A stretch of DNA of 29,091 nucleotides from Pezizomycotina sp. ARF18 (Eukaryota > Ascomycota), in assembly GCA_002224055.1 (NCBI GenBank), contig AZLU01000348.1:1-29091 (forward strand), given 5' to 3'. Positions 707-24,295 of the stretch are shown here, piece by piece. The position numbers and the translations under genes are program-made. The notes beneath the pieces were generated by a model. It was not told the DNA's origin. It searched no databases and worked only from the letters and a program-made list of their open reading frames with translations. The stretch's first letter is position 1. Each line of letters opens with the position of its first letter.

Positions 707-708
707 GT
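302..708. repeat. Direct duplication, two ~108-bp copies
   Basis: Bases 302-407 and 599-708 align over nearly their whole length. Shared blocks include CAGAAGAA, AGAATACCCGAG and GACGCAGACAATAA followed by CACGGCTA. The copies differ by substitutions and small indels. The spacer is about 190 bp. The substitutions are not biased toward C-to-T, so RIP is not the main cause of divergence. Confidence 0.75.
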
Positions 709-1640
709 GCCTTTAAACTTTGGTTTCTCAATCGGCGACGTTGTGGCGTCGGCAAGCTCGCCTACGATCTTGGCCAGCTTTTTACCGCTGGACGAAGGGT
801 GCGCCGGCCAAATACAGAGAGTACACGAATCATTCTTTAGTTGTACTCGACCTGGTTATTTTTTTTTAAATATATATATATATAATAAACATACAATAAA
901 TAAAGAAGAAAGAAAAAGGGAGAAGGGGAGAGAGCAGACTTGAGAAAGAACTGAGAATCTTGTTTGCTATTCTGAGCATGTGAAATGCTAAACGAATACT
1001 TCGGCGCACTTCTTTTTAAAGGTCGAAAAATCAGTTATTGCCCTGTCGTCATCCTCAACACCTTGCTGAAGGTCTTAAACGCCACGATCGATTCCCTGCT
1101 GTCGGGGCACTCGCCGCCCGGTACAGGACGCGGAGAACATGAAGACTATGCTGAGTAACTGCAACTCTACACTCGAGGCACTCAAGAATATATACGGACA
1201 AATACTCCGAACCGATCACGGCGGCAATGGCCAATTATATTTTTGCCGCACAAGCAGTACATCCCAAGCCAGAGTGGAGGAAGAAAATAGTTCAAAACTG
1301 GTATAAGGTTGGTGGACCACAGAAGGCGATGACATCAAGCACTTTATGAGCAACTTGGTGTCCACACCACCAGCATCAATATGATGTCGGCACAATTAAA
1401 AGGTTCGTCATTTCAATATTATGTGCGTATCATAGAGCTCGTGGTGACTGACCTATAAAAAAAAAGTTATTCCTATATGTAGCCATACGTCTACCAGTAT
1501 GTTGAGGAAATCTACAGATGGCATGAACGGATCTTCAAATCAGGAACTCAGCGACAACAACAATATCATAATATTTAGGGCAAGGTCTAGCGCCCGACAT
1601 GAAAGCAAAGATGTCCGGGAAAGATAAACTGGCGCTAGTA
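707..1640 (+). pseudogene. Decayed N-terminal domain of a fungal STAND/NLR-type protein
   Basis: Translation from 707 gives PLNFGFSIGDVV, matching the usual opening of fungal STAND proteins (M-x-FGFSVGDF-type). The expected ATG is GTG here. Further pieces follow in other frames. 1139-1303 encodes a helical stretch with STLEALKNIYGQILR. 1313-1384 encodes WTTEGDDIKHFMSNLVS, resembling the W-x-x-E-x-D-I-x-x-L-R-x-x-L-V motif that follows the predicted coiled coil. After LVS, one missing C in a CC run would restore SHTTSIN in frame. No NACHT, ATPase or repeat domain follows, so only the effector-like N-terminal part is visible. The family call rests on remembered motif patterns, not a search. The fragment may be a true relic or may contain sequencing indels. 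Confidence 0.5.
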
Positions 1641-2644
1641 ATTGCATATTATTCTTATATATAGATAGTACATAACTACCTCTTAAGTATTCCTTTATAT
1701 GACTTTAAAAACGGAAGAGATTGTTCTGGTATTTTTCTGGAGAGATAATAAGTAGTAGCAGCGACACTATTCCTTCAATCTAAAGTGATTTGTGATAATA
1801 TGCAATCACTAAGTATGATATATTAGACTTGCGGCCAGATTGCATGTTGATTTGAGGTAAAAAATTGATCTGATGCAAAAATTCAGACAATCGTTTTTTT
1901 TATTTTTTTTTGCTTCCGATTTCTCGTGTTGCACAAAGAAAAGGTCTGTGCTTCTAAAACAGCAAATTTTTGTGTGGAATATCAAAGAAATTCCGGCCAC
2001 ACCCACTGCCCATCCCCAGGACTCCGACCATTCTAAGAGAGAGACACGTAACCGCAAAATGTAAAATTCCTCCAGTTATTACATCAACCTCTTCGAAAGA
2101 TCAGAGGATTTGTCTAAAATAAAAAAAGACATCCCCTGTCGTGCCTAGGTTAGCTTAGCTGCACATTTTGGCAGAAAGCATTGGTAATTTTCATTGAGAT
2201 TTATGATATTTTCGATTTTCTCAGGATTAAGACCCTTGAACCACTGCTGCTCTGCCGCTAAATAAACGAAAATAATAATTTATTTAAACAGAGTTACTCT
2301 TGTTGCTTTAAAGGTTTTTTTTTTTTTTTTTTTTTTCATCATTATACAAAAAGATTAAAAAGGTTAACAATTTTGTACTGGAAACAGGAGTAGGAAACAG
2401 GGGGAAGATGAGAAATGATTTTTTTCAAGTTGAATAGACGAGTAACCAAAAAAAAAAAAAAAAAAAAAAAGAATTTGTATAGAAACGCAGCGCCTAGTTT
2501 GAGGTTCTTTTTCCCGCCTAATGGTGGTTGGTTGAGTGATGTTTTTGTTTTGATGCTAACGGCGGATGCTGTGCAGGGAATAAGGACTAAGATTTTGCTT
2601 GGTGACTGAAGAACAGAAGGGGGGAAGAAGAAAGCAAGCCTCCT
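1641..2644. other. Non-coding stretch with two long homopolymers
   Basis: No convincing gene is seen; short open frames here are made of low-complexity codons. A 22-bp T run (2315-2336) and a 23-bp A run (2448-2470) lie about 110 bp apart in inverted sense. The bases between them show no transposon ends. Composition is moderately AT-rich without the CpA depletion of the RIPped blocks. Confidence 0.5.
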
Positions 2645-3373: not shown

Positions 3374-3779
3374 AATTACCTCTCAATTAATTTTGTGATC
3401 TGACATGCTAAGAGCCAGACTAAACTCTTTATACGTCGACTCAGAACAGCTACGGAGGAATACGATCACGAATAAGTGAGACGCCTTACGGCGCAGACGC
3501 ACACTTTACTCCTAGAAGGCTGTCCCAGTTCTTGTTATTTGAGAGATGGGCTAACTTAGACAGGAGGTCAAATAGATTGTCAATTTTCATTTTCTTCGCG
3601 AAAAAGTAATTCCAACTGTTTTATAGAGACGAAAGTAAGCTGGTGTTCAATTTTAACAATTAGTGTAGGGATTAGTTTCTAGCATAGATAAAAACCAAAA
3701 CCCAAATGGCGCAAGCAGCAATGGACTCTGATCCTTCTTGCTTCTCTAGATGCTTGCCATACTAGAAAATCTTTTTCTC
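3374..3779. other. Spacer without a supported gene
   Basis: Short frames in all directions are broken by stops and I see no splice signals or repeats. It lies downstream of the small minus-strand gene at 3780-4118 and probably holds its 3' untranslated region at the right end. Confidence 0.4.
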
Positions 3780-4732: not shown

Positions 4733-4910
4733 TTGCTGGAACGGAATTCGAGAAAATCCTGCCAGCTCGAATACGGGTTCCGGTCGGCCGTCCCGCACAC
4801 ACATGGGTATATATTTGCGAATTTTGGCGGGGACATTGTCCCCGATTTGAGCCTCAACTCACGAGCACTAGCAATCGCCCAACAGAGCCACATAATAATG
4901 CTTGTTCGGT
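4733..4910 (+). pseudogene. Left part of a locus split by the 5-kb transposon
   Basis: An open frame without ATG reads from 4733 to the transposon edge and looks protein-like (PHTHGYIFANFGGDIVPDL, then LNSRALAIAQQSHIIMLVR). Right of the transposon, 9921-10116 is open in a frame one base out of phase with it after removal of one TA copy. Together they suggest an old coding locus interrupted by the insertion. I recognise no family, and other frames here are also open, so confidence is low. Confidence 0.25.
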
Positions 4911-4957: not shown

Positions 4958-5377
4958 TTACTAAGATAACGGTAGCTACTATATAAAAAAAAAAAAAATA
5001 GCTATTTCTAGGTACTATCGTAGCTTCGGGCCCCCTATATATATATATCCTAATAAAGCTTATCGATTATATATATTATAATTAATAGAATTCTATTTAT
5101 TATATATTAAATAATACTAACGCGCTAGATATTATTATAGCTAGTTAACTATTATATTTAAGCCTAACGCCTAATAAAAAGAGTAAACGTCTAATAGAGC
5201 CCTTAATAGTAGCGCTAGAAATAGACTATCTCTTAATAAACGGTTTATTTTATAGAGTCCCCTCTTTAACTTAAAGTACTAAAATAAGGACGCCGTATAA
5301 AGTCCCTATATAAATAGCCTTAGCTATACTACAAGATAAGCAGCAACCTATCAGGCGTTAGCTCATTAATACCTTTT

Positions 5378-5491
5378 AAGCAAGATTTCCCTTACAATAA
5401 GTTTTTTCCCTTATAATTTTACTCTTTACCTTATAAGCGAGATTTTCCCTTCTAAACGAGTTTTTTACCTTATAATTTTACTCTTACCTTT
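5378..5491. repeat. Two 57-bp tandem units
   Basis: AAGCAAGATTTCCCTTAC (5378) and AAGCGAGATTTTCCCTTC (5435) begin two adjacent copies. Both contain CCTTATAATTTTACTCTT near their ends. The differences are mostly single C/T or G/A changes. It sits in the subterminal left part of the 5-kb element. Confidence 0.7.
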
Positions 5492-7074
5492 ATTTTTTTT
5501 AATAAAAAACTTTTTAATAAAACTCTATAAATTATTAAATAACCTCTTTTTCTAATACTTCTTCTCTTTTTTCTAAAGTAATCTAGTTATAATATTATCG
5601 ATAATAACGATCGCGATAATAAGAATTATAAACGAGCTTCTTAGTAGTATTATACGTTAAGCCTAACATTAAAATAGCTAGGTTATCGTAAGGGTATATA
5701 GCGTCAAGATAGCTAGAGCTAAGTTATTTAAGGTAATATCAACGAGCGTAACGTTATTTTTAATAATAGCGGCTATAGCGACTAAGGCGGCGATAAATAA
5801 GCTATTTTTTACTATAAATAGACAAAAAATTAGTAGGAGAAAAGGAGAAGAAGAAGAGAAATATATATATATATAATTAATTCCCTTTTTTTTTACCTTT
5901 ATAGCATTAAGTAGCGCTAAACGATCTTAGAAACGCGCTATTTAAGAGTTAATATATTAATAAATATATATAAAATGAATAAATAGAGAAAATACGTACG
6001 TACTAAGTAATATATAAGAATTAAGTCTCTAAGCCGGTAGCGATAATAGTTAACCTTTAGCGCGGGCTATATACACAGAGAGTAAGCGTTAAATATTTTA
6101 ATATAATAGAAGGGAAGAAGTAGAAGCTTATTACTTATAAGATACTTAGTATTTTAAAGTATACTTTAAGCTTAAGCTCTTTAGGAGTTTTTTACGTAGC
6201 GGGTTTTAAGTAGGAGGGGGTTCTTTTTAACGGGCTCTATTAAATAGGTTCAGGTTATAAAGAGAGATACAGAGGAAGTAGAGAGAGAAAGGGAAAAAGA
6301 TAGGCTAGAAGGTTAATTTATATTTAATTTAATATCGAGAAAAAAAAATTAAATTAAATTAATAAAAAAATTTTTTCTTTTCTTAGAGCTTTAAACGTAA
6401 ATATTAATTTATTTAATTAAAATTATAATTAGAATATTAATTAATATATAATAAATTCTAATTAAAATATAATATATAAGTTACTATGTTTAAAATATTA
6501 TACTTATTAAATTTTTTTCTTACTATATCTACGACGAAGCTATTATTATTATATATTATCTAATTATAGATTAGTAACGTTTTTAATTAAAATTTTTAAT
6601 TATATTATATATAATTTATTTTAATTAGAATTTTAATATATATATAATAATTAACCGCTTTATTTTACTATTTGATTACTATATCTAAAGTTCGATATAG
6701 CTTTTTAATATATATATAGTTATAATTAAATTTTCTTTAGTTTTTATTTTTTTTATTTTTTAATAATATGAATAATATAAGAGAAAAACGTATAGAGATA
6801 CGATATTATAAATTATAATTACCAATTTACTATTCTTTAGAGATATCCTTTTTTAATTAAAATTATACTATTATTAATTAAAACCCGACCGGCTTCTAAC
6901 AGTTTATTTTTTTTAAAAATAAATCATCGTTACTTACAAAATATTATATAAATTTATCTATTTATATTTATTAAGCTTAAACCTTTTATAAAAAAAATCT
7001 AAAAGCCTTATTATATCTAGATAAACTAAAATATACTCTAATTTAAAGCCTTTAAGGCTTTAATATATTTAAAA

Positions 7075-8268
7075 ATAAAACCTATAATATTTAAATCTAG
7101 TCTCTATAATAATTACTAATTACTTAATAAGTTTATTAAATACAAGAAACTCTTATAAAGAAAAAAGAAATAAATATAAACGGTAAGATTATTATTAGAG
7201 AAATAACTACTAAATTCTAATTAAAAATTATATTTATAAATTAATTAATTAATAAATTATTATTATTAAAGTACCTATCTAGCCTTTAGATTTTATAATT
7301 TAATAAAGGAAATATAAAATCGCCCGTCTTATAATAGCTAGATAGTTTTATAACTCTAATGCTAATAAGCTTATAAGACTTTAAAACTAGTACTTATAAT
7401 ATAGAATATATATTTAAAGAAGTTAAGGGTAAATATATCTATATCTATCTCTTTTAATCTTATATATTTATTTATATTTATATATAATTAGTTACGATTT
7501 AATTAGAAATTTAATTAAAATTTTATCTTAATATTATTTTTTAATCGATAGCAACTTTATTTATTATAAATCTTAAGCTTATACTATCTCTTTATTTCGA
7601 TTAAAATTATAATTACGACTAAATATAAAGCTACTAGATACTAAGTAATTATTAAAAATAAGGTAGTATAAGTAAAATTATATAGCCTCGTCTCTATCGA
7701 TAAAGAGTAAAGAAAGAATACGCGTAAAGATATCTATAATAAAGAGTAAAGAAAGAGTAGAAAAATACGCGTATAAGAAGCTTACGATAAAGAATAGAGA
7801 AAGAGTAGAAAAGAGTAGAGAAAGAATACAAGATAGCTTATAGTTAAGGCAGAGAGATAGTTATCGCCTCCTAATATATATATATATATATTTATTTATT
7901 ATTTAAACTATTCTAATTTATTGTTATTTTTTATCTTTTATTTTCTATTTTCGCTTTATTTTTTTTTTCTTTTAATAATTTTTTCGATTAAAATATAGCC
8001 TTTGATTAAAAATCTAAAATAATATACGTTAAAAAAGGTAAATTAATCTATAGTACGTAAAAATATTTAAAATTAAAAGGCGTAGTTATTAAAAGGTAAA
8101 ATTATTTAAAAGGTATTAAGTTTTTATAAGGTAGAAGAAAACTAGAAGGTATTAAGTTTTTATAAGGTAGAAAAACTAGAAGTATTAGAACCTCGCTAGG
8201 ACGACCTAAGCCTATTTTATTGTGTATATTAAGCACCTAACACGCTTATATGACTACTACTTATGATG
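7075..8268 (+). repeat. Module R, copy A (inside the 5-kb element)
   Basis: It aligns in reverse complement with 25995-27085 plus 28428-28578. Landmarks shared by both copies are the CTTATGATG end, the CCTAAGCCTATT block, twin 40-bp units containing GGTATTAAGTTTTTATAAGG, an (AT)n run, and a minisatellite of about 60-bp units (7690-7850) with AAAGAGTAAAGAAAGAGTAG and ACGCGTATAAG. No coding sequence is recognised in it. Its right end coincides with the ATG of the transposase relic, within a few bases. Boundaries are approximate because both copies are RIP-diverged. Confidence 0.8.
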
Positions 8269-9655
8269 AGTATAGCTTTTATTAACGCTACTAAAGTATT
8301 ATTAAGGCCTAATATACTAAATTAATAGCTAGGGCTTTTTTATACGCTATAAATACTACGTTATATAGTTAGAGAGCTAGCTAGTAGCGCCTAAATCGAT
8401 AAAAATTAGCTAAAGCGCTTTTTAAGACGATATCTTAAACTTTACGTGATATATTCGTATACTAGATAATAAGTATAGCTATATAGAGTATTAGTTATAA
8501 TAATTAATTATTTTAAAAGTTTTAAAACGCCTAATAAAATAAACTTAAAAATTACGATATATACGTTAATAAAAAAGGCTTTCTATAAAGATTTTATTAT
8601 AATAGTTAGATTATAGTCTAAAGGCCTATAAACTAAAAATTTAAGGTATATAATAATAATCGAGAGTTAATTACTATAATTAAGTAATTAATATAATAAA
8701 TACACGTACTAGCGTAATAAAATATTAAAAGTAAATCTTATCTATTAGATTAATATTAGGATATATATTATACACAGGGTAGTAGTAGCTATTAGTATAA
8801 TATAATTAAATAATAATTTAAGCGTTAAGTAGCTTTTATATATCTTTTACTATATACTTTTTAAGATTAAAGGGGGGGCTTATACTATATTATATTAGAT
8901 AGGTATAGTAGCTATTTATTAGTTAAATTTATAAAATTTATTTAGATAAAGAATATACTCTTTTATTATTTTTTATACTATTTACGTAATATAGCTATAG
9001 ATATTAGTACTTAGCGTCTATAGAAAAGATATAATAGGCTCGTTAAGAATTTTATATACTATAATAAAGCCTCGATAGTAAAAAAAACTTTATTAGCTAA
9101 TAACTAAGGCCCGCGACCTTAATTTTACGTCTAATATTATATAAGGCGCTAGAAGTACGCTAAAGCTATACTATTAAACCTAATACGTACTAGAATAAAT
9201 ATCTCGATTTAATAAATAGCTATAAGCCGGTAATATAAAGAACTAGCGTAGATATAAGAATCTTTTTTTTAGTTTAAAGCCTAGATCTAATAAATTTAGC
9301 TACCCTCTATAATAAACTAATCTAATATAGTATCTAACGACGCTAAAAAGATATTATAATTAAACTTAGGCTTTTAGCGCCTATTATATCTCTATTTAAT
9401 AAGATTTATAAGGCTATAGCTATGTCCTTTAAATAAATAAATATATAAAAGTAAAAAATATAATTACGCGCTTAAATTAGGATTAAAAAGTAGTAGAGCT
9501 CGATAGCTATATATATATTAGTAAGGCTAAAGTATTAGATAATAGTAAGCTATTAGCGGGTATTAATATTATAATATACGCGATTAGAATAAAAAATATA
9601 AAGTTAGAAGAGCTATACGGAGTAGCTAGCGTAAAGCTATATCTACGGGATGGTT
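8263..9655 (+). pseudogene. pogo/Fot1-type DDE transposase relic
   Basis: Transposases of this family have an N-terminal HTH, a CENP-B-like HTH, a DDE catalytic core and a Lys-rich tail. In the frame from ATG 8263, the translation shows IDKN-stop-LKRFLRRY (the family's GKNWVxRFLKRH block). It then shows IYVNKKGFL (family IYNxDEKGF, whose first catalytic Asp and the next Glu read as Asn and Lys, as G-to-A RIP predicts) and NNRELITII (family xxREFITLIE). NNLSVK-stop-LL, then GGAYTILY followed by a stop (family YRxLLxDGHxSH), and an LQPLDVGVF-like segment follow. The tail has YISKAKVLDN. Scattered TAA/TAG codons make it non-functional. The first HTH domain (about 60 residues) is absent: R lies where it should be. 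No stop-free path exists. Confidence 0.75.
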
Positions 9656-9875
9656 AAGAAAAAGAAAAATAAAAGAAAGAGGACTAGGGGCTAAAGCCCT
9701 AACTATTATTTATTTACTATATAATTACTATATAATTTTAAATACGCGGTAATTAGGACCCTAGATAGTTCTTTCTATTACTATTTCGTAGTTCTCGAGC
9801 CTTTGATTATTATTTTTTATATATATATAGAATTTTATGGTTATTTTAGTATGGTCTTAGTATTTCTTGGCATGG

Positions 9876-9918
9876 CTGGCTCGCTGGCCGTGCCGGCTCG
9901 CACGCTAGTGCCCCACGT
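9876..9918 (-). repeat. Right terminal inverted repeat of the 5-kb element
   Basis: Inverted partner of 4913-4957, followed by the TA copy at 9919-9920. The RIP signature stops before it, at about 9840. Confidence 0.85.
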
Positions 9919-9920
9919 TA

Positions 9921-10196
9921 CCCGCGATTTCCTGACAACAGAAAACTATTAGGCAACCCCAACGAGGAGCACCGAAATCTTCCACTCAATGGGGTATCTG
10001 TCTTCAAAACGATTCGCTCAACAGAGCCTCAAAATATTTGCTTCCGACGACCAGTCAGTAGATTCCGAATTTCCCAGGCTTACGGCGGCACTTATGTCTT
10101 ACATGCACGGGGCTGACGAAGAAAACTACCCTCCGAGCTAATACCTCTGCCCAAGCACGATCGAAAGATTGCGGAAAATACGGTACGTGAGTTGTA
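9921..10196 (+). pseudogene. Right part of the locus split by the transposon
   Basis: From the insertion point a plus-strand frame (YPRFPDNRKLLGNPNEEHRN at its start) stays open for about 65 codons to a TGA near 10116, then reads on to a TAA near 10196. The average composition is protein-like, but no family is recognised. It lies one base out of phase with the left part. The minus-strand frame 10055-10294 over the same bases is less convincing. Confidence 0.2.
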
Positions 10197-10901
10197 AACC
10201 TTGCTCTAATATCGTATGAGAGGCGGATTGTGCAAGCGAATAGAGTTTTACCAACAATGCAAATCCATAATATCACCAATCGATTTAAACACATGTCGAA
10301 TCGTGGTGGTTTTCAGTGATCCTTGTGTTGTATGTTATTAGCCATCAGCTAGCAGAGAGAGTTTTCCACAATGCAGCCAATGTGACACTCAACCAACATT
10401 GAGTGAACGTTTTTGTATTACCTCTCGGAGTTGGTAGCAACACTACACTTTTACCATAATATCAGTTCGTTTGACTGGGTTAATGCGGCTCTCTGCCGGG
10501 CTCTGCACTTTGGATAGAGTCGCAAATATCGCTCAAGCGAAATTGAGTGTACGTGGGGGGGGGGGGAAGGTGAGCGTGTACACGAGGTACATACCTCGCT
10601 CGCGAAGAGAGCTTGCTTTCCTATAAGAGTATGGAAGCTAAAGCTGATGAAGATGGTTGAGGCCTCGACTTTCCGAGGAAATACAAGTAAGACCTTGTTT
10701 CCGGCCTACATCAATGTGAATAGAGAGCTTCGTGGGACGCTAATAATATCCACGCGGAAATTAGCAAAAGGCTATCTTTTCTTACTCTATCCTTTAAAAC
10801 AAAAACTTCGGCACGCAATTAATCTCATCGGCTTTAAAAGCAAAGAAGATATTTCCCAATCTCGATTCGTTGTTTGACAATTCCTACCTTATCCATCGAT
10901 C
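10197..10901. other. Spacer; 12-bp G run and a weak 76-aa frame
   Basis: A run of 12 G lies at 10555-10566. An ATG frame at 10647-10877 (76 aa, Lys/Leu/Ile-rich) has no recognised domain and could be chance. The last 50 bp are pyrimidine-rich and lead into the small gene at 10902, so they may be its 5' untranslated region. Confidence 0.35.
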
Positions 10902-11152
10902 ATGCTCGACTCGTACGTTTCAAAGCACGAGACCGTCTACAACGACCTGGACATAAGGCCAAGTCTACCAGGGATAAAACCAAACTCCCGGTATCCGCAA
11001 GAGGCAGATGAAGGAAGCTGGAGAGTGAGCATTCATCCTGTAAAACCTTTAAAACTCCAAATTAATTTCTCGTGACTGACAATGAAATATCGCGTGTTCT
11101 TGGAATTTAGGCTCGCGGATCACTGCATGAACCAAGCCCTCAATTGCTCTGA
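10902..11152 (+). CDS. Small spliced gene, unknown product
   Basis: ATG at 10902 opens a 41-codon exon (MLDSYVSKHETVYNDLDIRP, ending ADEGSWR at 11024). An 86-bp intron follows with donor GTGAGC (11025), a CTGAC branch-like site and acceptor TTTAG (11110). Splicing in phase 0 gives ARGSLHEPSPQLL and a TGA at 11150-11152, 54 aa in total. The next frame of exon 2 is open further (LADHCMNQALNCSESK, to TGA 11190-11192) and looks at least as protein-like, so a one-base frameshift near the exon junction is possible. No signal peptide, membrane segment or known domain is seen. The splice signals are the main evidence that it is real. Confidence 0.5.
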
Positions 11153-11192
11153 GAGCAAGATTGAAAAATATAAAAACGAGGCCACCATCTGA

Positions 11193-11842
11193 ATGAAGGC
11201 AGGAGACTCATAGTGACCAAGTCGATGAGTTGGAGGTGACGACGACGTCGAAGACCTGCCCTGAGGACAACATTTGAAAAAACTTAGTATAGCAATATCA
11301 GCAATACGTTGTAATGTCCACTTGGAGAGCTAGTCCAACATTATATAAACAATGTATGTAGCTTCTGCCGGTAGAACAGTGTCTTCTAAACTGCAATACA
11401 GCGGAGATCTACTTGAAGTATTACAGTAGAAATAGAAAACAGGAGGTGTGATCTCATGTTGTTATGAAAATATGTGGATGGCCGATGGGCGCCAATCATA
11501 TCGTGATATCGACATTGAAAAAAAGAGGAGCACACCACGCGCCAGCCCAAAGTGACCGTCTGCCATGATTCTGTACTAATGTACTTTCTTCGAGTTCCGT
11601 GGGTGGAAGTGACTCTGTACAGACTAGTGGGAAATATGTCAGGGGAATCTAATCTTCATTCGTCTATTTGTCTAAGGTGGAACAAAGAATACCCAATGCG
11701 TTGCAATTGGGGCTCTGCCGCAGGGCCAGTCGTGATGTGCAATTGTCATTAAATAGCCGTCAGAACCTCAACTGGTGACTGCCTGCTGCCGACGAGTACA
11801 CATCGTCGCCCACCTTTTCCCCTCAGTGAGCATTGCATTCAT

Positions 11843-11878
<36 letters not shown>

Positions 11879-11923
11879 CTCTCCCAGAGTGACCAGGAAC
11901 GCAGGGCACTTGATTGCTTGCAT
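11193..11923. other. Spacer with 33-bp poly(A), upstream of HET gene
   Basis: No supported gene is seen; the plus frame 11552-11752 has no domain. A pure A tract at 11844-11876 sits 47 bp upstream of the HET start codon. It could be a promoter poly(dA:dT) element, which excludes nucleosomes, or the tail of an old retroposed insertion. I see no target duplication around it. Confidence 0.4.
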
Positions 11924-13970
11924 ATGGAACACTTCCTCTCCCCGCCGGCAAGCGCATATCCGGCCCGAATCTGACAAATGAGAAGTACATGTACCCGGTG
12001 AAGGTTTCGAGAGCTACCCGAACGCTGCGGGTGGAATTCCAAAGACCTAAAGTGAAAATAGCTTCGGCGGTCAATGGAGATGTTGCGGCCTTTTTCCAGA
12101 GCTGGCTGTACTTCGGCTTTGTCGTAGAAGTTCTACGCATCGCCAAGGTCCGCTTAAGACATCTATTTAACTCTCCGACGACGGGAAATTTGTTTCCAGC
12201 AAAATTACCAAGTCTTATCCGTAAATGGGGCCCAAAAGTGGGAATATGCGGTACAAGCGAACTACAACTGTCTCGGCTGGTCGACAACCCGGACCGGATG
12301 GAGTGGCCACCGAAACAGTCGGTAATAAAGCGAGTGACGGACTACGTGGAAAGGTATGTACCCCTTACTACACCTCCGTCCGGACTACGGCCTCCGCTTC
12401 AGGCCAGAACCCGCTGCCAGAGAAGGTTTGATGTCATAATAGGGCTTGACATACGCGTCGCTGCGGCTGCTACTACTATGAGATGAACGAGAACACCTTC
12501 CAGTGGAGTTCGTCGACATTTCTGGAACGGCGGATGCTGGCGAACGGCTGGTGTCCCATGGATGTAGACAGGGCACTGGCCCACATGGGGTCGACGGTCA
12601 CTATTCACATGTCCAAATGGGGAACCAGGAGGTGCACGTGGATCACAAGGAGTGCGACCGTAATGAGTGTAGAGCAAGGAACAGACGAGGACGTATAAGC
12701 AGAGACACGTTGTCGAGGGGTGTACATGTGAGAATGAAAGGTGTGGACAAAAGGAGCTCGTGAAAAATAGAGGACGGTGGCTACAATTTACTCTTCGACA
12801 TGAAAAAGAAGATTTCGAGATCAAGTCCTCAAAGATGATCGGAAAGGGAGTTCGGACCCGCCCTATGTGCGATTCGCATGTGTAAGAATATATATCACAA
12901 ACTGATCAAACTTCTGCGACAGCACTAACAATATTTTTCTTCGTTTGTTTCTCGCAATATTAAGTGGAGCGACGGCATGGAAACCCGATCGGCAACGACC
13001 CATCTCCTGTCAATGCGGCCCCGCGTCCAACGTACCGTCGATGCCTCATCCATCCACATCCGGGAGACACTCCAGTCCGCCATTTCTGGATGGATACGCT
13101 ATGCGTGCCTGTCGGCGATTCGCACACATGAAGGACCTCCGCTCCTCTGCATCCGCCTCATGCACGTATCTACAAGTCAGCTTCCGCCGTCCTCGTCATC
13201 TCCTCCACACTACAGATATATCCACGGAATCCAGCGACGCAGAGAAAGCAATGGCGCTGTTTCTGTGTAATTGGAATACACGCTCTGGACATTTCAGGAG
13301 GCATGCTCGCTAAGGCGCTGCTGTTCAGTCTTCCAACGCTGTCGTCCGTTAATGACATTACACAAAGGTTCGGCGTTGGCACGCGGCCACTGGCATTACC
13401 TCACTGGCCGTCGATCGGCTCGTCGTTAATCCTTTACGTTGCTTCGCAATCTGCTGCGATCCGACTATTTCGGAAATCGGATAAAACCTACGCAGCGACC
13501 CGTTCGCTATGTTCGTGGCATACAACACCGTTCACAAGCCGGAAGAGCGACGAGACAATCTGCGCGGGCACCATCCTCGATTAAAGATGAAAGTTGCAGG
13601 ACGTCGGGAATCAGATAATGCAAGAATATCATACGGAACGGCCTGGAACGCCCGGTAAAACCCGATGACCTTTCTCGCAGAGCGCCGGATGGAGAAATTC
13701 TACGCCATGGCCGCGTATTTTCCCCCGACATCGTGTTCAGCTCCACAGACGTCTGAACGGGACGGCTTCCGCTGGCACCTGCGTCTCTCATCGTACTGCA
13801 GCGGCGGTTTTGCCCGGCACTGGGGTGATGAAAAAACACAAGCCTCCCCGTCTTCGACAAGTCGCGTAACTGCTCAAGTACAAAGGCCCTGGCTCGTGTT
13901 ACCTCAATACAGCATCTTGCTACCGCAGCATCGTCGTCGAAGTACCCCCGGAAAGACGAAGAATCTCTAA
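11924..13970 (+). pseudogene. HET-domain (heterokaryon incompatibility) protein, frameshifted
   Basis: HET-domain proteins mediate fungal non-self recognition and trigger death of incompatible fused cells. The order of family blocks is intact. After ATG 11924 come LPLPAGKRISGP and FFQSWLYFGFVVEVL (N-terminal). FLERRMLANGWCPMDV follows at about 12520-12570, then a Cys/His-rich link and TYKQRHVVEGCTCE (12691 on). The HET core shows WSDG (12965), FWMDTLCVPVG (13084-13116), LWTFQEAC (13283-13306) and SDETIC (13546-13563). GFRWHLRLS (about 13760) and LVLPQYS follow. An 83-bp intron (12882-12964; GTAAGA donor, CACTAAC branch, TTAAG acceptor) splits SHV and WSDG. At least six single-base shifts move the frame. 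Several would be repaired by one base in a homopolymer, and few nonsense codons lie within the correct frames. It is either a young pseudogene or a gene with assembly errors. Confidence 0.85.
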
Positions 13971-14995
13971 AACTACGTATAACTACCAGACCAACGCCAG
14001 AGCATCCCGAAGGCCTTCATTGGATACCAGGAACAACATACGGGGTCATCGTTAGCAAGCCATCGATGAAACTGGGCCGTGATCGACTTTAACGCTGACT
14101 GGGATCTCAGCGCAACTCCGGAAAACATAACAGAACTGAGCATTGGTTTCGAAAGCTGTACCCAACGTACAAGCTCTCTGATTATACGGCTGACGCTACG
14201 ATGGGAATTGTGAAAGGCTTTGATGAAGTTGAAGTTGTAGTACCGATCGAGGAAATGAATGAAGAGAAAAATAACCTGCAAAGCGATCAGGCTATCAGAA
14301 ATAACAAGTCAGACAATGAGATAGCCGAAGCAAAGGAAAGCAGAAGCTAAATACGCGGCTGAACAATATAGAAATCCGGCAAGAATGTATCGGGACAGTT
14401 ACGCTGCTTAACCCAAAAGCTGTTCTGCCATTGCTGGATGATGACGATGACAGAGCTCCGATCCCATGACCCTCCGTAAAAGAGACTCGATTGAAAGACA
14501 AAGAGAAGAATAGTAAGGAAGGTGAAGACGACGAATGGGAAACGGACGAAGATGATCCAAACCTGGACTTGGGTGATGACACTATCAATGATAAATTGAT
14601 AATAACGAAGTATCGATTCAACAGCCGAAGATGATGAATACAATAGCGATGAAGAAGAGGGCCAGTCCGACTACCGCCTACTCCAAGTGAGGAGGGTACG
14701 AACGATCTTGGCCCTTCTAGCCTACCAACATCGACGAAGCCGACGACCTCTCCGTGTCCATCCCGACAATGATCTCGGATATCAGAGGACTATGTAAACA
14801 GCCTCCGAGCCCGAACGCAGCAGCAGTGACGGCGAAGAGTGGTCCTCTGATGGCGGTGATTTCTTGGATGATTTGAGCTCAGGTGGCTCAAACCATGAGT
14901 TGGAGGTGGAGTATTCTGATTCTGAAGAAGATATAATAGGCAGAGTACGTTATCTATCAAAGAAGACAAAACGATACTACTGCTCATGAGGACGA
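13971..14995 (+). pseudogene. Acidic coding remnants downstream of the HET gene
   Basis: The plus strand keeps protein-like runs in shifting frames: PEGLHWIPGTTYGVIVSKPS, KGFDEVEVVVPIEEMNEEK, GEDDEWETDEDDPNLDLGDD and DGEEWSSDGGDFLDDLSSGG. The last two form strongly acidic, Ser-rich tails typical of disordered C-termini. It may be the C-terminal extension of the HET protein or a separate decayed gene. The frames opposite the acidic runs (Ser-rich, minus strand, 14295-14643) are their complement. The end near 14995 is the last stop after a basic stretch (KKTKRYYCS). Confidence 0.4.
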
Positions 14996-15526
14996 TCGAT
15001 ATACTGGTCAGGTGTCCGCTGTCGCTACGGGGTATGGTACCGAGGGACGAAGTGGTACATCTACTGACTCTATTTTTTTACAACCCTCACTCTAGCGAAG
15101 AATAATTCTGAAATCCTCAGGTGGTGATAGGGGTTACTAAAAAGTACTAACGGTAACTGTAAATATTGATTATATACCTCTGGTAAATCAAATAAGCTCG
15201 CGATTTCTTGAGCCCCCCATCTAGGCGTATGGGGTTAAACTACTGGGATAGCCTCCCGTATTATCTTTGGTCTAGAGTATCTCGGTTTAGTGCTTACACG
15301 ATTTCAACTGCTCATTACTACCCCGGCTTTGACATGTCATCTGTTCGCTGCCTAGAATTTCGCGTTAATTAATTTCTCCTGCATTATATTGTTTTGATCA
15401 TTGTTATAATAAATATGGACTTTTTGTTTCCTACAACCAATAGCTTTCAATTTTAATTCTTCGAAATCCAATCGCGTTAAAACTGATATTATACGAGGCC
15501 GAATCCTCTGCCACTTGCAACCCTGA
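14996..15526. other. Spacer without a supported gene
   Basis: Mixed composition, no repeats or splice signals that I can link to a gene. The right part would hold the 3' end of the minus-strand gene that stops at about 15527. Confidence 0.4.
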
Positions 15527-15527
15527 G

Positions 15528-17030
15528 CTAGAGGAAAATCGTTTCTGTCTGCACCGCAAGATATTCCCAGACCTTCCCATTGGAGGTGTCGAAGACCATC
15601 TGGTGTCTGGCGCCCTTGATCACATCCAGACCTATGGCTACTTTCACAAGATCCATGCCGCGGCATATCCTGAGTTCGACCTCGTCCTTCAGCCTGCCTT
15701 GATCTTGCCCACATGTTCGGGGAAGAGGTTGCTGTTGGAAATCGTCCCCAGGTCCCCACAGGAAGACAAGGGGATTCAGCCTGCGTATCTGTCCCACCCT
15801 TGGATTGTAATGTTGGAGCCGCCTCCTGTTCCACATTGGCTGCGACAGATTCAATTTCCTTTCTCCGTCTCCGTCTTCTCGGCTTTCTCGTCACCGGTAT
15901 CGCCGAGGCGACCAGGTCCCCACTTCCTGTCGCAAGCTGAGTATTTCTCTGACAGTCCCGGCCGCGGTCATATTGAGGACCTTCTCCGTCGTGTTGAACC
16001 CTTCGTCAGTAAGCAGCTGGAGTATATATTGCTCGGACGTCTCGACGAGAACACAAGCGAGGGATATCATACGGGCTCTCCCCTTCCAGCGGGGGAGGCA
16101 GCAACGACGTTCGTTTTCGATCGCCTCTTAACTGTCTCGCGTCGAGACGGTTGGATACTTCCCCGTCAATATTGCCGGAGCCACTTTCGTTCCAGAGGAG
16201 CCAGTGGAACTCCTCCATTAGGGCGTCTTCCCAAGGCCGTAAGCCCAGGCCCCCCCGCAGGGTCCTGGAGCTGCCGGAGTTGATGTTCCTCGTAATTTCC
16301 AGGTACACCGCCCCCGCGCCAGTGTCGTAGCGTGACAGTGTATACCTCGAGGGCCTGTTGAGGTAGAAATGATATCCTGGTGCAATTCGTACACGGCGAG
16401 GCCGATCTTCTTTTCCCCCTTCTCGTTTGACCTGGCTGTTCCCCTTGCCATCTTCCTCCGAGATTGACGACCGTCTCCCTTTCTTTCCCTCCATTAGCCC
16501 CGGCTTCATCGTCGGAGTTGGATCTTTCGGGAGTCTCCACCTCGCTGATGCATTTCTCGTGGGTTAAGTCGTACATCCATAGATAGCCCTGCTCCCTCAT
16601 CATCGCGTAGCGCGGTCTCTTACCCTTCGACACCAATTCGACCTCCTCTGGCTGCGGGGTTCGAGTTGAGGCTCCGAGTCGACCGTCGACAGCCGGTCTA
16701 TTATCGCGTAGTATAGCAAAAGCGAGATTATTTTGGCGTTATACGGCGTCGTCGTTAAAGTCTGTTAGATGTCCGTATCGTCTCCGATTTGCACATCGAG
16801 TAGGTGGCGAGGAGCTCCACCTCGATCCGAGGACTAAACTTCACATCAATTTTCAAATCTGCGCCGAGCCCTGCCGCGATAGCGGACGGACTGAGCTCAA
16901 GAACTATAATATCACGCCGTAGAAAGCCTGCGAGGTATCTACACCGCCGCCCAGGAACATGTATTAGAATATCGCCTGCGGGCTAGTCTCGGTCTGCCGC
17001 TCCGTGTTTAACTCCTGCGAAGAGTTGTAA
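15528..17030 (-). pseudogene. Unrecognised fungal protein, frameshifted
   Basis: The minus strand reads coherently in blocks in changing frames. From the 5' side: LELSPSAIAAGLGADLKIDV, then FSPRIEVELLATYSMCKSET (about 16900-16780). Next come YAMMREQGYLWMYDLTHEKC (about 16600-16530) and RPSRYTLSRYDTGAGAVYLE, then WEDALMEEFHWLLW (about 16230-16190). EQYILQLLTDEGFNTTEKVL (about 16030-15970) follows, then VELRICRGMDLVKVAIGLDV and HQMVFDTSNGKVWEY before a TAG at about 15528-15526. The product would be about 480 aa, soluble, mixed alpha/beta, with no signal peptide or membrane segment visible. I do not recognise the family. The plus-strand 226-aa frame (15603-16283) is Pro/Ser/Arg-rich complement and is not preferred. 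Several in-frame stops lie in the N-terminal part (16650-17030), so that end is uncertain. Confidence 0.5.
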
Positions 17031-17448
17031 GACAAGTTATACCGTACCTAATTTGTTCTTCGAGCTAACGCACGAGTTGATTTAGCAGGATTATTAGGGG
17101 TGATGGCGTAGTAAAGATGAAAAAATTTAATAGGAAGTGTTTACCGTATCGGTGTATTCCCTGCTATGTTCAAAGTTATAGCTATTTTTTACGCTGTTAA
17201 CGCGGATAGTCGTCGAAGACTCGTCGCCGCTACCATAGAAATTATAGTATTAAAACCCTAATGTCAACGTTGATCACGGACGAAGATTTGCGAGTAGGGA
17301 ACTAAGAAGCTATATCCCCGAGGCAGGAAACCACTAACTAATAGCATCACAACTCGAACTTTATATAAAATAATTCCCAAATCAATGTGAAAATGCGAAA
17401 TAAAATATAAAATTATATGGAAAGATCTATAAATAGAATTATTTTTTA
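17031..17448. other. Spacer up to the MITE
   Basis: No supported gene; composition becomes AT-rich toward the MITE. It probably holds the 5' region of the minus-strand gene. The last eight bases (17441-17448, ATTTTTTA) are one copy of the MITE target duplication. Confidence 0.4.
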
Positions 17449-17913
17449 CACCCCAGGCACATGCCCAGTTACCTTTATAAAGCGGGTAAGCAAGCAACTC
17501 TCCTAGGCTTTATAAAGCTAAAATAAAGCGCCTACCTCTAATTACTAAACCGCCCAAAAAAATTAAAAATTAAAAAATTAAAAAATAAAAATAAAATAGA
17601 AATAAAATAAAAAAACAGAAAATAATTTTTTATGCTTATTATAATAGCATCCTACTTATAAGATTGATTGTAATACTAATTATAGCCATGTTCTACTATT
17701 AATCTTTTAAAACTGGCCCAATTATAATTTTACAATGCGTAAATGTAAGCTAGGTTCTACCTTTTCTAAAGCTTTCGTAAAGTATTTTTTAATTTTATTT
17801 TTTTAGGCAGTTATTAGTAATTAAAGATGAGCGTCTATATTTTAGCTTATAAAGCCTAGGAGAGTTGCTTGCTTACCCGGCTTTATAAAGCTAACTGGCG
17901 TGTGCCTGGGGTG
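17449..17913. mobile_element. 465-bp MITE with ~140-bp terminal inverted repeats
   Basis: The left end CACCCCAGGCACATGCCCAG matches the reverse complement of the right end (CACCCCAGGCACACGCCAG). Pairing continues through GGGTAAGCAAGCAACTCTCC, TAGGCTTTATAAAG and TAATTACTAA into A-rich sequence, about 140 bp in all with few mismatches. ATTTTTTA occurs at 17441-17448 and again at 17914-17921, an exact 8-bp target duplication. No open frame, so it is non-autonomous. An 8-bp duplication fits hAT-type mobilisation, although the termini are not the classic TAG/CAG-G form, so the superfamily is an inference. Mismatches are few, suggesting recent or unmutated insertion. Confidence 0.9.
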
Positions 17914-17934
17914 ATTTTTTATATATAAAATGTC

Positions 17935-18890
17935 TTGGCAGGTTAACACGGACCGGCCGGGCCGCGCCGGGTTACCCAGCAGGCGGGTCAAAGGGTGCCT
18001 AAACCCGGCCCGGCCCGCTCGACCTCGAATGCTAATTATAATAATATAGTTATAGTATTAGATAAAGCTTTATTTCTAAATAAATATTAAAAACTATCAT
18101 ATATTTTAGTAAAAGTTAAATTAATAAATATTATAAATAATAGTATAATATATAATAATTTCAAATATATTAAATAATATATATAAGAATATAAATATAC
18201 TAATAATATATAATATAATAGATATATAGGATAATAATATTTAATAATAAGAAATAATAATAGATAGTAATATAGTATAATAATATAATAATACAAAAAT
18301 AATAATAGTTTATTAAATAACCGTATTATTAAAGATAACTATATTTAAAATAAGTAATATATATATTATTACTTATTAATATATTTAAAGAGGCATAAAA
18401 AATAGGAAAAGGTTTAAATTATTATAAAAGAAAAAAGATTAGCCTTGTTTAGATTTTAAGGTTTTAAATTAGATGGGGGAAAAACTAAAACCTAAATTAG
18501 AAAGTCCATTCCTAAACCGTAAAAAAAGGGCCAAAAAATTTATTTCTTGAAAGTGTTCTTTTTTTGGAGACCACTTTAGGGAAATTGCAATTTTAAAATA
18601 TTTTAGCTAGAAAAATAAAAAAATAAAAAACCCTAAAAATTTACTTGAATTTTTTTTTGCAAGATAAACCGAGTTTTGATTCGGTTTAACTTAAAAAAGA
18701 AAACAACAGTTGTAATATAATTGGCTTAAAATTTTTAAAAATCTTTAACTCCAAGAATTTACAACACTCCCATCAATAAAAGGTTTCACGAAGGTATTCG
18801 CGCGAAATTTTATAATAGCTAGCATTAAAATACCTATAGCACTATTTAAAAGACTCTTTACCATATAAACTATTTACAAATTAGAAAATA
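17935..18890. mobile_element. AT-rich transposon debris with a GC-rich hAT-like end
   Basis: At 17939-18030 a GC-rich patch (GGTTAACACGGACCGGCC, then CCCGGCCCGGCCCGCTCG) resembles in layout the GC-rich subterminal region of the hAT-like element at 24464. It then passes into RIP-like AT-rich sequence. I found no matching second end or target duplication, so it is likely truncated. Around 18750-18776 the minus strand reads TGATGGGAGTGTTGTAAATT, reminiscent of a copia-type LTR start. A short hairpin (AAACCGA...TCGGTTT) lies at about 18666-18688. No coding is seen; the 69-aa minus frame at 18087-18296 is Tyr/Ile low complexity from AT-rich DNA. Confidence 0.45.
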
Positions 18891-19795
18891 AAAGGTCTAC
18901 CATGCATTGGTTCCAGTCATTTTGACTTCTCTTCTCTCCAGTTTTATATGGTTAACGGACGATAAGAGAATTGGAAGGTTTCCAAATCAAAGACAGCTGG
19001 AAGGTAGATGCATCGGCGATGTTGCTGTAAAAAGGTACGTCAATCCTGAAGGAAATATTTAACGACCCGACAAAGAGAGTTTCGGTGTTTTCAATCCTTA
19101 CGCAGACCTTTTGAGGAATATTTAAGAAAATGGAGTAACAGACAATTGAAGTTCAAACAATTCAGCAAAGCCGTTGTGCACCGACGTGTATTTTTTAGTA
19201 GTCCAGTACACTACAAATTGACATAGATTTACTTTTTAAGTTAAGTACGGTTTTGTTATACAGATCTTCTATTCAGGAAAGCAGGAAGGAACGAGGTTGG
19301 TTTTTCCAAGTCCCTTTCTACCTGTCGTAGATTACTGAGAAAGTATATATCTAGATGTCTTGGTATAACGGACTAACACCCAGAATGACGCATCAGTACT
19401 TTCGTCTCGTGCTCTTGGAGACCTTCTTGAGACGTTTCAAACTACTAGTAAGAAGAAATAAGTAAGGAAAGAAGAAATGTTATGGTGTTTTCTTTTTTTA
19501 ACTTTTGTATATGATGAAACAATAAACAGTGTAAATTGCTCGATTGTAAGAAACAGAAGAGTACAATTGTCGTATACAACGTCATGACTCGATCTGGCCC
19601 TGGTAAGTTTACTGAAGTTCTTTCTCGATATTGATTTGAGAAGCGTCTAGAATCTTCGAGAGTTTGGTTCATTGTCCCCGAAGCCTCTGATTTTTCAACC
19701 CCTATAGCTACAATTCTAGGTCTCGATCGGGGCATCTCTATACTAAATTTACTATCGCTTGGTATCGAAATCAATGCCAGTATTTGCCTATTAAA
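18891..19795. other. Spacer with one weak minus-strand frame
   Basis: Balanced composition returns. A minus-strand frame at 19445-19774 lacks an ATG at its open start. Its first internal ATG gives MPRSRPRIVAIGVEKSEASG, which looks protein-like, ending in a hydrophobic low-complexity tail. No splice signals settle it. Otherwise there is nothing, and the right end should hold the promoter of the gene at 19796. Confidence 0.3.
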
Positions 19796-21201
19796 ATGAG
19801 AACCCCTGCTACTTACCTTCCACTTTTCCTGTTTTATATATTGCTCTTCTTTATATTATTTTCTCTTTTATATTTAGCACATTTACTACCATATTCATAT
19901 TCAGATAACACCAAACTCGTTTCTAATATTACCCATTGTCGAGACTCCAGCTCCTTTGTGTTTTGTATTCATTGTAATCGTAATACAACGTCACGATTTA
20001 CAAACGGCGAATCGATGTCAAATATGGTAACATTTTGGCAAAAGCTAATTTCATCTTACCGGCGTCGATCAATCACAAAGCAACGTGAAGCTGTATTCCA
20101 GCAACACTTCCGAACCCCACTCTCTCCTCCAACGAGGAACTGTGGCAATAGGTTCCCAGAGGACCGCCGCCGGTGTATAACCCTGACAATGCGTCATACC
20201 TAGAAGTTTCAAAACCCGTCAGCTTCCCCGTCGACGGCACAGTCCATGGAAAATGCTCTCGATAGTGCGCGTCGGAAGGTAACACTACGGCAAAGATACC
20301 AAGAACGTGGAACCCTTAACCTTGACGATTGGCACAGTAAGAGATGCACTCGCCCTGACATGATGACGTGGGACAGATTACCAACCTAATTATCCTTACT
20401 GTACCCAATGGATATAAACCAGGTTACCCAGATGGAAGTGTTATAGTCACATCGGCAATGTTATCTCACCTACGCGAGTTAGATGCCATTTACCCAGAAT
20501 TCGAAACGAAGAACGGCCTCCAATGTAGTCTCGCCAATGACTGTTACAACTTCACGTTACGTCGGCATCGCAGCCTCACTGAAACAGGCCCTCCTCCATC
20601 TCCAATCTTTGAATGGCACCAAGAAAGACATCAAGGGCGGGGAAACCCTCCCGTCAGCAAGGACCTAAGTATCGAAATTCTTGAAGTCGGCCGAAAATCC
20701 TTTCGACTGTTTGAGAGAGTCGCACGCGGTAGTTCACAAGTGATCTTGAAAAGTTGTATGGATTTTAAGGTGCGGAATATAATCCTCCACTCGCAAGCTC
20801 AATTGTCATGAGCAATATAAGAATAGGCACGTAAACGAATGTTGACTTTGTTTTTCTTACGTTTGATTCATATTAATATTAGATTCAGGGAAAGTCCTAC
20901 GAATACTGGATGCATGATAAAAAAACACGAGAAGTAATTTTTCCGTGCTACGAAATAATGCGAGATGCGGCAGAATGTATGGTCGAAGTCCTGCAAGGTA
21001 ACATTTCTTCAAGTCCTCTTGAACTCACGGCAATTTAATCCTTTATGAGATCGCATTGAGGTTGTTTTTTCTCTGAACTTACTGACGACATTTTTTATGA
21101 GCAATATAGCTGCACTCGATGGTTACGAGCAAGGATATCAGAATTGTCTTTGGACACTCTTCAACCAAAGCTCGATCTACTCAGACACAGATCCTAATTA
21201 A
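19796..21201 (+). pseudogene. Unrecognised multi-exon gene, frameshifted, single N-terminal membrane segment
   Basis: ATG 19796 starts a frame with a strong hydrophobic segment at about residues 7-32 (YLPLFLFYILLFFILFSLLY), a signal anchor or one membrane span. Later plus-strand blocks change frame: VYNPDNASYLEVSKPVSFPV, DSARRKVTLRQRYQERGTLN, NLDDWHSKRCTRPDMMTWDR, SAMLSHLRELDAIYPEFETK and RYVGIAASLKQALLHLQSLN. The 3' end is well supported. A 58-bp intron (20831-20888, GTAAAC...CAG) precedes an exon reading KSYEYWMHDKKTREVIFPCY. A 112-bp intron (20998-21109; GTAACA donor, ACTGAC branch, TATAG acceptor) leads to a last exon ending DTDPN and TAA at 21199-21201. Family unknown. The N-terminal hydrophobic frame may belong to the upstream region instead. 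The minus frame at 20073-20285 is open but lacks splice support. Confidence 0.5.
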
Positions 21202-23058
21202 TTTATTCTCTTAAGATTTTGGATGAATGGACGAGAGCGAAATAGGTACATGAACCCTACTCTTGGTAGGTGTTCATTTCCCTATCAATTATTCAGATTC
21301 TGATATACAGCGAGACAAAAACTGAATATAAATTCATTGATTACGATACAGCAAGGTAGATCCGTCGGAAATCCGACCCTAATGAGCCCATTAAGACATT
21401 GATACTGATGGCTTTTCGCGATTGTCGTGGTAAGGAGCGAATGCATCTTCCCGTGTACGTACCAAGCGGCAAGCGACCCCGAAAGGAAAAATCATAACAA
21501 ATGACCAGACAGAATGATAGTCTTTAGAAGTTCTTTTCTTGATAGAGAATACCGTCCAATTGTTCTTTTTCATCGCAAATGTAGAAGGACAAGTTTTTTT
21601 TATACGTTGCTTGATTGATAATAATGTGAAAAGGGCCAAAAACAAAAAACAAAAAACAAAAATGAGACAACTAAACTAACTTGGAGCACTGATGATATCC
21701 ATAGCGAGTTTTACCAAGTTGACGCGGTGTAGGCATCCTTGGTGTTAGTCTTATTCTTTATAACCACGAGCATGCGCATGTCGATGTTGCCAACTGCCAT
21801 GATCACCCTTTCAGATCAAAGTGAGGTAACTGCTGCTCGCTGGAGTTACATGGATGTTGAAGATAAGTGCCTGGGGAATTGAGACTATTAAATAAATTTC
21901 CGTTGAGGTTTTTGGACTTTCGCGACACCAGCAGTCTCTCGCGATATTACAGGCTTTCTAATCATTCTTCCTCGCTGTAGTATTATAGATCCGCTGGTAG
22001 CTGACTTTGAGATAAGTTTTGATTTACTAGGGGAGTTAGCTCTGTCGTTACATTGTCCTAAGTCAAATCAAATGCCTTCAGAAGCTGCATCCTATCCGAT
22101 AATTTGTATTAACCTGACGAATGTATTTGTATTAAAAAGTAATCCATCGACATAGGTATGTAATGCCCATATATTATTAACAGTGAAACCTCAGATAAAA
22201 GTCTAGGGCGAGCTCACCAGGGAGCTAGCTATACAGCTGCAATTAATTCTCCGCGTGGGGAGCACAGTCGTCCTTGGCTATAGAACAAAATTTGGACCGC
22301 TTCTAGCTAAATATCAATAAACAGCAAAACTCTAGGTTAACCGCTGAACGTGCAGATACATGCAACTGGCAGAGCTTTTCAATAACAGTGGAGATTGGGA
22401 CGCCTTGGTAAGGAGGAAGGGGAAGCACATTATTATGAGATTCAGCAGCTATGAAATCAAGGTGTTTTTACATTGAGATCGGCCAGATATCGAGCGTGGA
22501 CGATGGCTCTCCTATACACTAAATCGACGCAATATACTTGCAAGCTAGAGTCACTCCTACAGGGCTTCCTTGATTTACGATTTTTTAAAGTTCCAAATAT
22601 CGACGTTCCAAAACATGCTGAAAAAGAAACCAAACATTGTCGACAAAACCTTGTTATTAGATGATTTATAAATTATTTTTCTTCACATTATCGTCAAGAC
22701 TCTATGGATGTATAATAAACCGTGGATATTTGGAGCTTGGAGAATGGGAGAAGAATGCTGAAATATTTGTTGCCACGACTAGACTTTTATTGATTTTATA
22801 ATTTAATTTCTCCAGATTATTACCAGTATAGAGCGGTGATAGCTTCCTTTGAAGCTTATAAGGTAATTCACGACGACCTTTTCAAAAAAAAAAAAAAAAA
22901 AAAAAAAGAGTTGTCAAATTTCAAAAAATTTTAATTCATAAATTATTCATCATTATTATCATTATTGTTATTTCCCTTTTTTTCTCTTTAAGTTACTTCT
23001 TCCATAACATACTTCAATCTTGTACTCTGCCCAAGAAAAGGAAATAACAATATCGAGC
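21202..23058. other. Long spacer; small weak frames and a poly(A) tract
   Basis: No gene is supported. A minus-strand ATG near 21802 opens a 29-codon frame (MAVGNIDMRMLVVIKNKTNT) that could be the end of a decayed gene. A plus frame at 22473-22664 has no domain. An (AAAAAAC)n-like run lies at about 21640-21662 and a 24-bp A tract at 22884-22907. From about 22960 the plus strand is pyrimidine-rich (TTTCCCTTTTTTTCTCTTT), a common fungal promoter feature, leading to the ATG at 23059. Confidence 0.45.
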
Positions 23059-24295
23059 ATGTCTGTAGACGAGGCGGCCGCCCAGGCCATTCGAGATGCA
23101 CTCCAACGGAGTTCGGCCAAGTCGCAGCTCTCGCGGGAATGCTGAACAATTGCGCTGCTAACCTTCACACTTCCTCAACAGTATCGGGGCAGCAGCAGTA
23201 CAACCGCAACCCAAGCGGTTTAGCACCTGGAAACTCATGTATGTCTCTCGAAGGTTATCGCAGAACATCTCCCAGCTTCGCTTTTACTAATGGAGGTTGA
23301 TTTCTCAACAGCTTGGGCGCCGCGGTTGTCGGCACCCTCACGCTTGCGCAGTTTATAGGGACATTCGCCGTCGTCGCGATGGTATCAGTGCATGAAACTG
23401 GATTCATCGACCCACTGAAACTTCCTATCTCCACCATCCTCCCCTTTGCTCGTTCCTCATCTCCTATCAAGCAGCCAGATACCTCACATGTACGATGGAG
23501 GAGAAGGGATCCGAATGGGCCACTTGGGCACAAATTTCTTTTCTTATTCCCTGTCATTCTTAGGAGTCACAGGGTGGTTGCAATATAGACCAGAACCCTT
23601 GAAGGAGTCTCCAGAGGTAAGTATTCTTCTATTTCCGGACCGCATTTACCGTTTTCCCTTTACATGTTTATTTGAAAGCGGTGTTAACTCAATTGTACTT
23701 AGTTCAACCGTCCAAACATGAAGCGCTCTTCGTTGACACTCCAGAGACCGCCTCCAAGTATAGAGAAGCCGACCATTCCTGCTGGCACATTGCCCGGCTG
23801 GTTGATATGTTCTGTCTTCTCTTGCTCGCGTTCTTCGTCATCGCCCCTGTCCTTAAGGGCTGCACAATACCATCAACAGTCACCTGAAAAGGATGAGGAA
23901 ACACGCCACCATCCCGGGAGGCACCTCCAACACCCCGCCGCCCTCCGCCCCACCGTCGGCGTCGCCCAGGTCTCCACCGCCTCCGGTTCCACCACCACCC
24001 TCTCCACCTTACAGATCAACGGGATCCCTTCCACATCCTCAACATCGTCACCGTCGAAGTCCCCAACGTCTCCGTCGTTTTGCCTACGCTCACCATAGGC
24101 GGTAGCGTTAGCACCAGTAAAGTTCAGCCGGTCCTCGATACGCCGCAGCTGAAGGTGTTTCAGAAAAGGGCCCTAAGCTGAAGCAGAGCGAGGAAAAGCT
24201 GCACGTTAGGCTCAGGGAGATAAAGAAGCTCGAGAGGCAGAGGATCGAGCTTGGGAGAAGAAGCAAAGGCTTAAAAGCGCCTTGCCATAAATGTA
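23059..24295 (+). CDS. Multi-exon membrane protein gene, unknown family, with frameshifts
   Basis: ATG 23059 begins MSVDEAAAQAIRDALQRSSA. Intron 1 (23121-23181; GTCGCA donor, GCTAAC branch, CAACAG), exon 2 (23182-23238), intron 2 (23239-23311; GTATGT, ACTAAT, CAACAG) and exon 3 join in frame. Exon 3 encodes a membrane segment (AAVVGTLTLAQFIGTFAVVA). Near 23440-23480 the frame shifts, continuing GIRMGHLGTNFFSYSLSFLG to donor GTAAGT. Intron 3 (23617-23702) precedes exon 4. A missing A in the AA of ATGAAGCG would restore LFVDTPETASKYREADHSCW and a second membrane segment (DMFCLLLLAFFVIAPVL). Further blocks read FHILNIVTVEVPNVSVVLPT and a charged coiled-coil-like tail (EEKLHVRLREIKKLERQR) ending near 24295. 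It is probably an integral membrane protein. The Pro/Ser-rich frames overlapping exon 4 (23718-24105) are less likely. The coordinates are those of the decayed gene as a whole. Confidence 0.55.

Follow-up and report, generated by a model that had tools for sequence, protein, structure and literature searches.

The stretch analysed here, referred to as the window, takes in all of contig C348 (AZLU01000348.1; 29,091 bases) of the draft genome assembly of Pezizomycotina sp. ARF18, which comprises 46,361,250 bases in 408 contigs. HET and NACHT genes, short introns, 5S genes in dispersed positions and a signature of repeat-induced point mutation all point to a fungus. It carries a HET-domain gene whose reading frame changes several times. 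Very probably these frame changes, together with those found across the assembly, are artefacts, namely consensus insertion or deletion (indel) errors of the draft. This conclusion is drawn because essential genes and 5S ribosomal RNA (rRNA) genes in other parts of the assembly show the same kind of breakage. Uncorrected indel error had been proposed by a first-pass annotation of the window, and is borne out by these housekeeping and 5S rRNA genes, which show single-base losses at a similar density.

Frame changes in the HET-domain gene

12573..13303, plus strand: HET-domain gene segment with several frame changes and one called intron (12850-12922), from a frameshift-tolerant alignment to the HET protein frame L005.

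Positions 10500-15100 of the window (plus strand) were aligned to a HET protein frame from contig C1 of the same genome (L005), which itself passes the PF06985 cut-off. The alignment scored 102 over 12573-13303, compared with a maximum of 38 when window 12501-13700 was shuffled 20 times, and upholds the earlier claim of frame changes for this gene; several of them are too tight to accommodate introns. At an alignment penalty of 17, 63 of 203 residues were identical (31% identity), one intron of 73 bases was called at 12850-12922, and two stops were kept. Five frame changes were called under this setting, near 12643, 12684, 12978, 13214 and 13285, all of them one base short. The number of frame changes varied with the penalty, being 8, 5 and 4 at penalties of 14, 17 and 20 respectively. 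No intron was called at penalty 20 and three stops were left, while at penalties of 25 and 30 just 48 residues were aligned, with no frame change and one stop. Among the sites singled out by the first-pass annotation, the one near 12981 adjoins a called frame change at penalties 14 and 17, and the supposed splice junction at 12882 falls inside the called intron.

The window gene resembles HET-domain proteins (PF06985) in aligning over about 200 residues with a frame from the same genome that exceeds the family cut-off. Unlike members of the family, it is absent from the 15 matches returned by a PF06985 profile search of the genome; none of these lay on C348, and the gene stayed below the family cut-off. 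Four pieces of the gene were also run against Pfam and gave no match.

Housekeeping and 5S rRNA genes outside the window

Profile searches of the organism's own genome returned genes split into pieces, 33 for Cpn60/CCT and 38 for Hsp70. At 29 of the 56 joints between successive pieces (Cpn60/CCT, 11 of 25; Hsp70, 18 of 31), the frame changes although the pieces overlap or lie no more than 3 bases apart, and thus no intron fits. The remaining joints were intron-sized gaps, longer stretches, or ambiguous. Certain overlaps reach considerable length, as much as 370 bases, the profile having extended in the wrong frame. An Hsp70 gene on C49 was recovered as seven pieces, with overlap in the DNA at five of its six joints. 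The joint count leaves aside pieces of ATP synthase, whose profile pieces were mostly parted by intron-sized gaps.

We then used a frameshift- and intron-tolerant aligner to compare 17 loci with DnaK, GroEL, AtpA and AtpD of E. coli. Twelve loci scored at least 80, and the seven with scores above 800 were used for counting; those below 80 were two loci on C53, a CCT gene on C24, and loci on C20 and C215. At a penalty of 20, the seven counted genes (two on C70 and one each on C49, C3, C303, C24 and C404) had 11,079 aligned coding bases, in which 57 frame changes were called, or 5.14 per kilobase (kb). All seven were broken, with 4 to 13 changes each (2.8 to 8.1 per kb), and the highest density was found on C3 (759 kb), the largest of the six contigs. 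A second reference for the C24 gene gave two frame changes, which were left uncounted. The total was 75, 65, 57, 55 and 53 at penalties of 14, 17, 20, 25 and 30 respectively. Most of the 57 changes were one base short (43), with 8 two bases short and 6 one base over; the last two classes, 14 changes together, shift the frame identically.

The aligner was checked on intact bacterial orthologues of 39-69% identity to the references, where no frame change was called in any of six genes (10,380 bases) at any of the five penalties. When eight random deletions were introduced into each of 24 copies of three orthologues, 164 frame changes were called for the 192 deletions, and the calls lay a median of 2 bases from the true place. 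As the bacterial control genes are free of introns, confusion between introns and frame changes is outside their reach. The overlapping profile joints are unaffected by such confusion.

When the housekeeping density was applied to the 0.61 kb of the HET alignment, 3.16, 3.57 and 4.15 frame changes were expected at penalties of 20, 17 and 14, compared with 4, 5 and 8 observed. The excess was not significant (P = 0.39, 0.29 and 0.06 respectively). The frame changes of the HET gene are therefore accounted for by the background of the assembly.

Untranslated genes gave a similar picture. A search for 5S rRNA genes found at least 15 copies (47 of 1,990 candidates scored), of which L110, L111 and L112 were excluded as divergent. 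Of the 12 retained, two complete copies were taken as the references for their sequence types, and so cannot show changes themselves. The other ten, compared over about 1,200 bases, carried 16 single-base deletions and one insertion; L101 and L104 had two and three deletions respectively and no substitution. These 16 deletions occupy 13 distinct places; 11 of the places lie in runs of at least two identical bases, where 41% would be expected (P = 0.0016). With L107 and L109 removed, nine deletions and one insertion were left in eight copies, and all eight places were in runs (P = 0.0008). Since 5S rRNA is not translated, and natural divergence would be expected to add substitutions, errors in the sequence explain these copies best.

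Within about 12 kb at C36:173881-186019 there are five 5S rRNA genes; both strands carry copies, and two sequence types are represented.

Other genes, repeats and contigs

The remaining features of the window are as follows.

707..1640, plus strand: putative STAND-like fragment made of short open pieces; label of the first-pass annotation, without Pfam support.
15355..16738, minus strand: unrecognised candidate gene at 15528, overlapping open frames from the lists of open reading frames; no Pfam match.
19691..20808, plus strand: unrecognised candidate gene at 19796, two open stretches from the same lists; two Pfam matches below cut-off.
23059..24295, plus strand: gene named by the first-pass annotation; a noisy codon-usage scan gives a hint of coding signal in three frames within 23910-24239.
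5001..10000, no strand: AT-rich block with the dinucleotide signature of repeat-induced point mutation (RIP); GC content 0.19-0.31, composite RIP index 1.13 to 1.44 in five 1-kb bins.
25001..29091, no strand: second block with a RIP signature, extending to the contig end; composite RIP index 1.11 to 2.26 in five bins, with inverted repeats.

Nearly every multi-exon gene of the window had been described as frameshifted. This held for the HET gene alone, with a weak hint for the gene at 23059. Within 23910-24239 the codon-usage scan passed through three plus-strand frames in turn (scores 35.0, 18.7 and 15.1; shuffled maximum 11.7), weakly hinting at a coding signal that runs through three frames. 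Codons for proline and serine abound there, and a minus-strand segment scoring 11.9 lies between the plus-strand signals. Scores above the shuffled maximum were also reached by several further segments of the window, in some cases on the opposite strand. The scan was judged too noisy to serve as a test for the unrecognised genes.

Pfam searches were run on 20 of the 210 open pieces of at least 45 residues from the gene-bearing stretches. Eighteen gave no match at E up to 1, including pieces 697-837, 707-940 and 1155-1346 of the STAND-like fragment and three pieces of the gene at 23059. The two others had matches below cut-off, both within 19691-20200 in the candidate gene at 19796. A NACHT profile found nine matches in the genome and none on C348, where broken frames may hide one.

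The gene-bearing stretches have a GC content of about 0.4-0.55 and are set between AT-rich blocks. Within the second RIP-signature block, 27001-29091 has a higher GC content (0.33-0.43) yet an index of 1.54 to 2.26, above that of the preceding AT-rich bins. The composite index is weaker (0.4-0.5) in the AT-rich block around 17300-19000. Over 11001-15000, the stretch of the HET gene, it is -0.69 to -0.07, which is no RIP signature.

Positions 7372-8275 and 25996-26930 hold an AT-rich, RIP-marked repeat in opposite orientations; over 892 aligned bases the two copies are 86% identical, with transitions making up 85 of the 126 substitutions. An element of about 1.1 kb at 24464-25565 has inverted ends TAGTGTTT / AACACTA and is bordered on both sides by the 8-base repeat AGTTAAAG (at 24456 and 25566); identical flanks of this length are left by DNA transposons of the hAT type. 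A partial second copy of the element, in opposite orientation, occupies 28926-29091 and runs off the contig end. Another element, of about 465 bases, lies at 17449-17913; its inverted arms, each about 100 bases long, differ in substitutions and in several short gaps. Because repeat copies within the window differ by single-base gaps plus many substitutions, age and error are indistinguishable there. A second copy elsewhere, as a haplotype or duplicate, was rejected as an explanation of the window for 9900-17300 and for piece 23301-23585, since a search of the assembly for either found none.

Contig C50 holds 33 of 54 listed transfer RNA (tRNA) matches (63 of 1,606 candidates scored; at least 54 matches in all), on one strand. 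All eight matches to PF00361, a domain of NADH dehydrogenase subunits, are also on C50, on the same strand as its tRNA matches. C50 looks like a mitochondrial genome of more than 230 kb (positions up to at least 230,876), which is large for a fungus. Its nad genes were considered as a high-coverage contrast and rejected; the matches contain stops and are likely to be cut by introns, and so the contrast was left unused.

Competing explanations and consequences

Several observations weigh against indel error as the explanation. Frame changes of the seven housekeeping genes were no nearer to runs of at least four bases than expected (4 of 57, or 7.0%, within five bases; background 7.5%), in a test that is blunt for coding genes, given a median placement error of 2 bases and the fact that losing a base makes the run itself shorter. 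With no excess at long runs in the coding genes, it is the 5S genes that carry the homopolymer bias. Two of these, L107 and L109, have about 6% substitutions and may be real relics. Some 5S deletion places are shared, L106 with L108 and L104 with L109, and such recurrence could reflect inheritance or a systematic error. The window still contains 33 consecutive A, a run that would be expected to disappear under a method that shortens long runs. The five loci of low identity (29-33%), which were not among the counted genes, showed fewer changes, 0.7 to 3.4 per kb (C208, four; C44, three; C139, C99 and C54, one each). Finally, at penalty 17 the HET alignment keeps two stops in 0.61 kb, the same number as the seven housekeeping genes keep in 11.1 kb. 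The HET stops may reflect either real decay or frame changes missed at 31% identity.

The first-pass annotation had argued for error from the fact that one extra base in a short homopolymer would repair several of the shifts. This argument is weak. Runs of at least two bases occur within five bases of 98% of positions in the named genes, and within two bases of 84%, so that the presence of a run near a shift does not discriminate.

The two stops would fit a mixed explanation, in which assembly errors lie behind most frame changes and one or more window genes, the HET gene above all, are truly broken. The HET count is also marginally high at penalty 14 (8 compared with 4.15, P = 0.06), and the gene sits between RIP-signature blocks. 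The excess is nevertheless not significant, and at this level of identity missed frame changes would be expected to leave apparent stops, so we regard such a mixture as unlikely, at perhaps one chance in a few. Much less probable is the stronger form, in which the genes of the window are genuine pseudogenes, in decay and flanked by RIP-affected repeats, and assembly errors contribute little. AT-rich RIP-marked blocks are a usual setting of decayed genes, strong ones lie on either side of these, and the stops in the HET alignment would fit. The HET stretch itself, however, lacks a RIP signature; its frame changes are not significantly denser than those in housekeeping genes elsewhere, so that decay is not needed as an explanation; and essential genes on large contigs are equally broken. 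RIP was rejected as a cause of the frame changes on the same absence of a signature over the HET stretch; RIP alters bases without deleting any.

It could also be supposed that the genes truly lack bases and are expressed through pervasive programmed frameshifting or insertional RNA editing. The preponderance of changes one base short (43 of 57) is what insertional editing would require. The 5S copies nevertheless differ from one another by deletions, some being complete and some short, several without any substitution, and the losses favour short runs, as do the long-read errors described in the Kastor paper (PMC12007338). We consider this explanation extremely improbable.

Indel error of the draft, the explanation we prefer, has parallels in published assemblies. 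In assemblies of Drechmeria coniospora made from nanopore reads alone, gene prediction gave full-length models for fewer than one sixth of the 305 single-exon test genes (PMC7500977). That species is likewise a filamentous fungus in which conserved genes lose frame through short indels, there mostly at homopolymers; in the account of polishing given for it (PMC7500977), more insertions than deletions were added, whereas here it is mostly single bases that are missing. For small genomes, the Kastor paper attributes annotated pseudogenes to homopolymer-associated indels, with 23.3% of genes affected in one draft (PMC12007338). The detected errors it gives for such genomes (PMC12007338) amount to less than 0.05% of the genome, whereas in the present assembly about 0.5 to 0.7% of coding bases are affected by frame changes.

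The errors would consist mainly in the loss of single bases, preferentially within short runs of identical bases, and would have a density of about 5 to 7 per kb of conserved coding sequence throughout the genome. Each coding kilobase would then gather several of them, and the window genes would come to resemble pseudogenes. Their source would be a long-read assembly that was polished with accurate reads insufficiently or not at all; long reads with insufficient polishing appear to be the likeliest origin. The window genes are, we infer, intact in the living organism. Family searches overlook genes broken in this way, as they did the HET gene of the window, and any frameshift, short open reading frame, 'pseudogene' or missing domain seen in this assembly is suspect until accurate reads have confirmed it.

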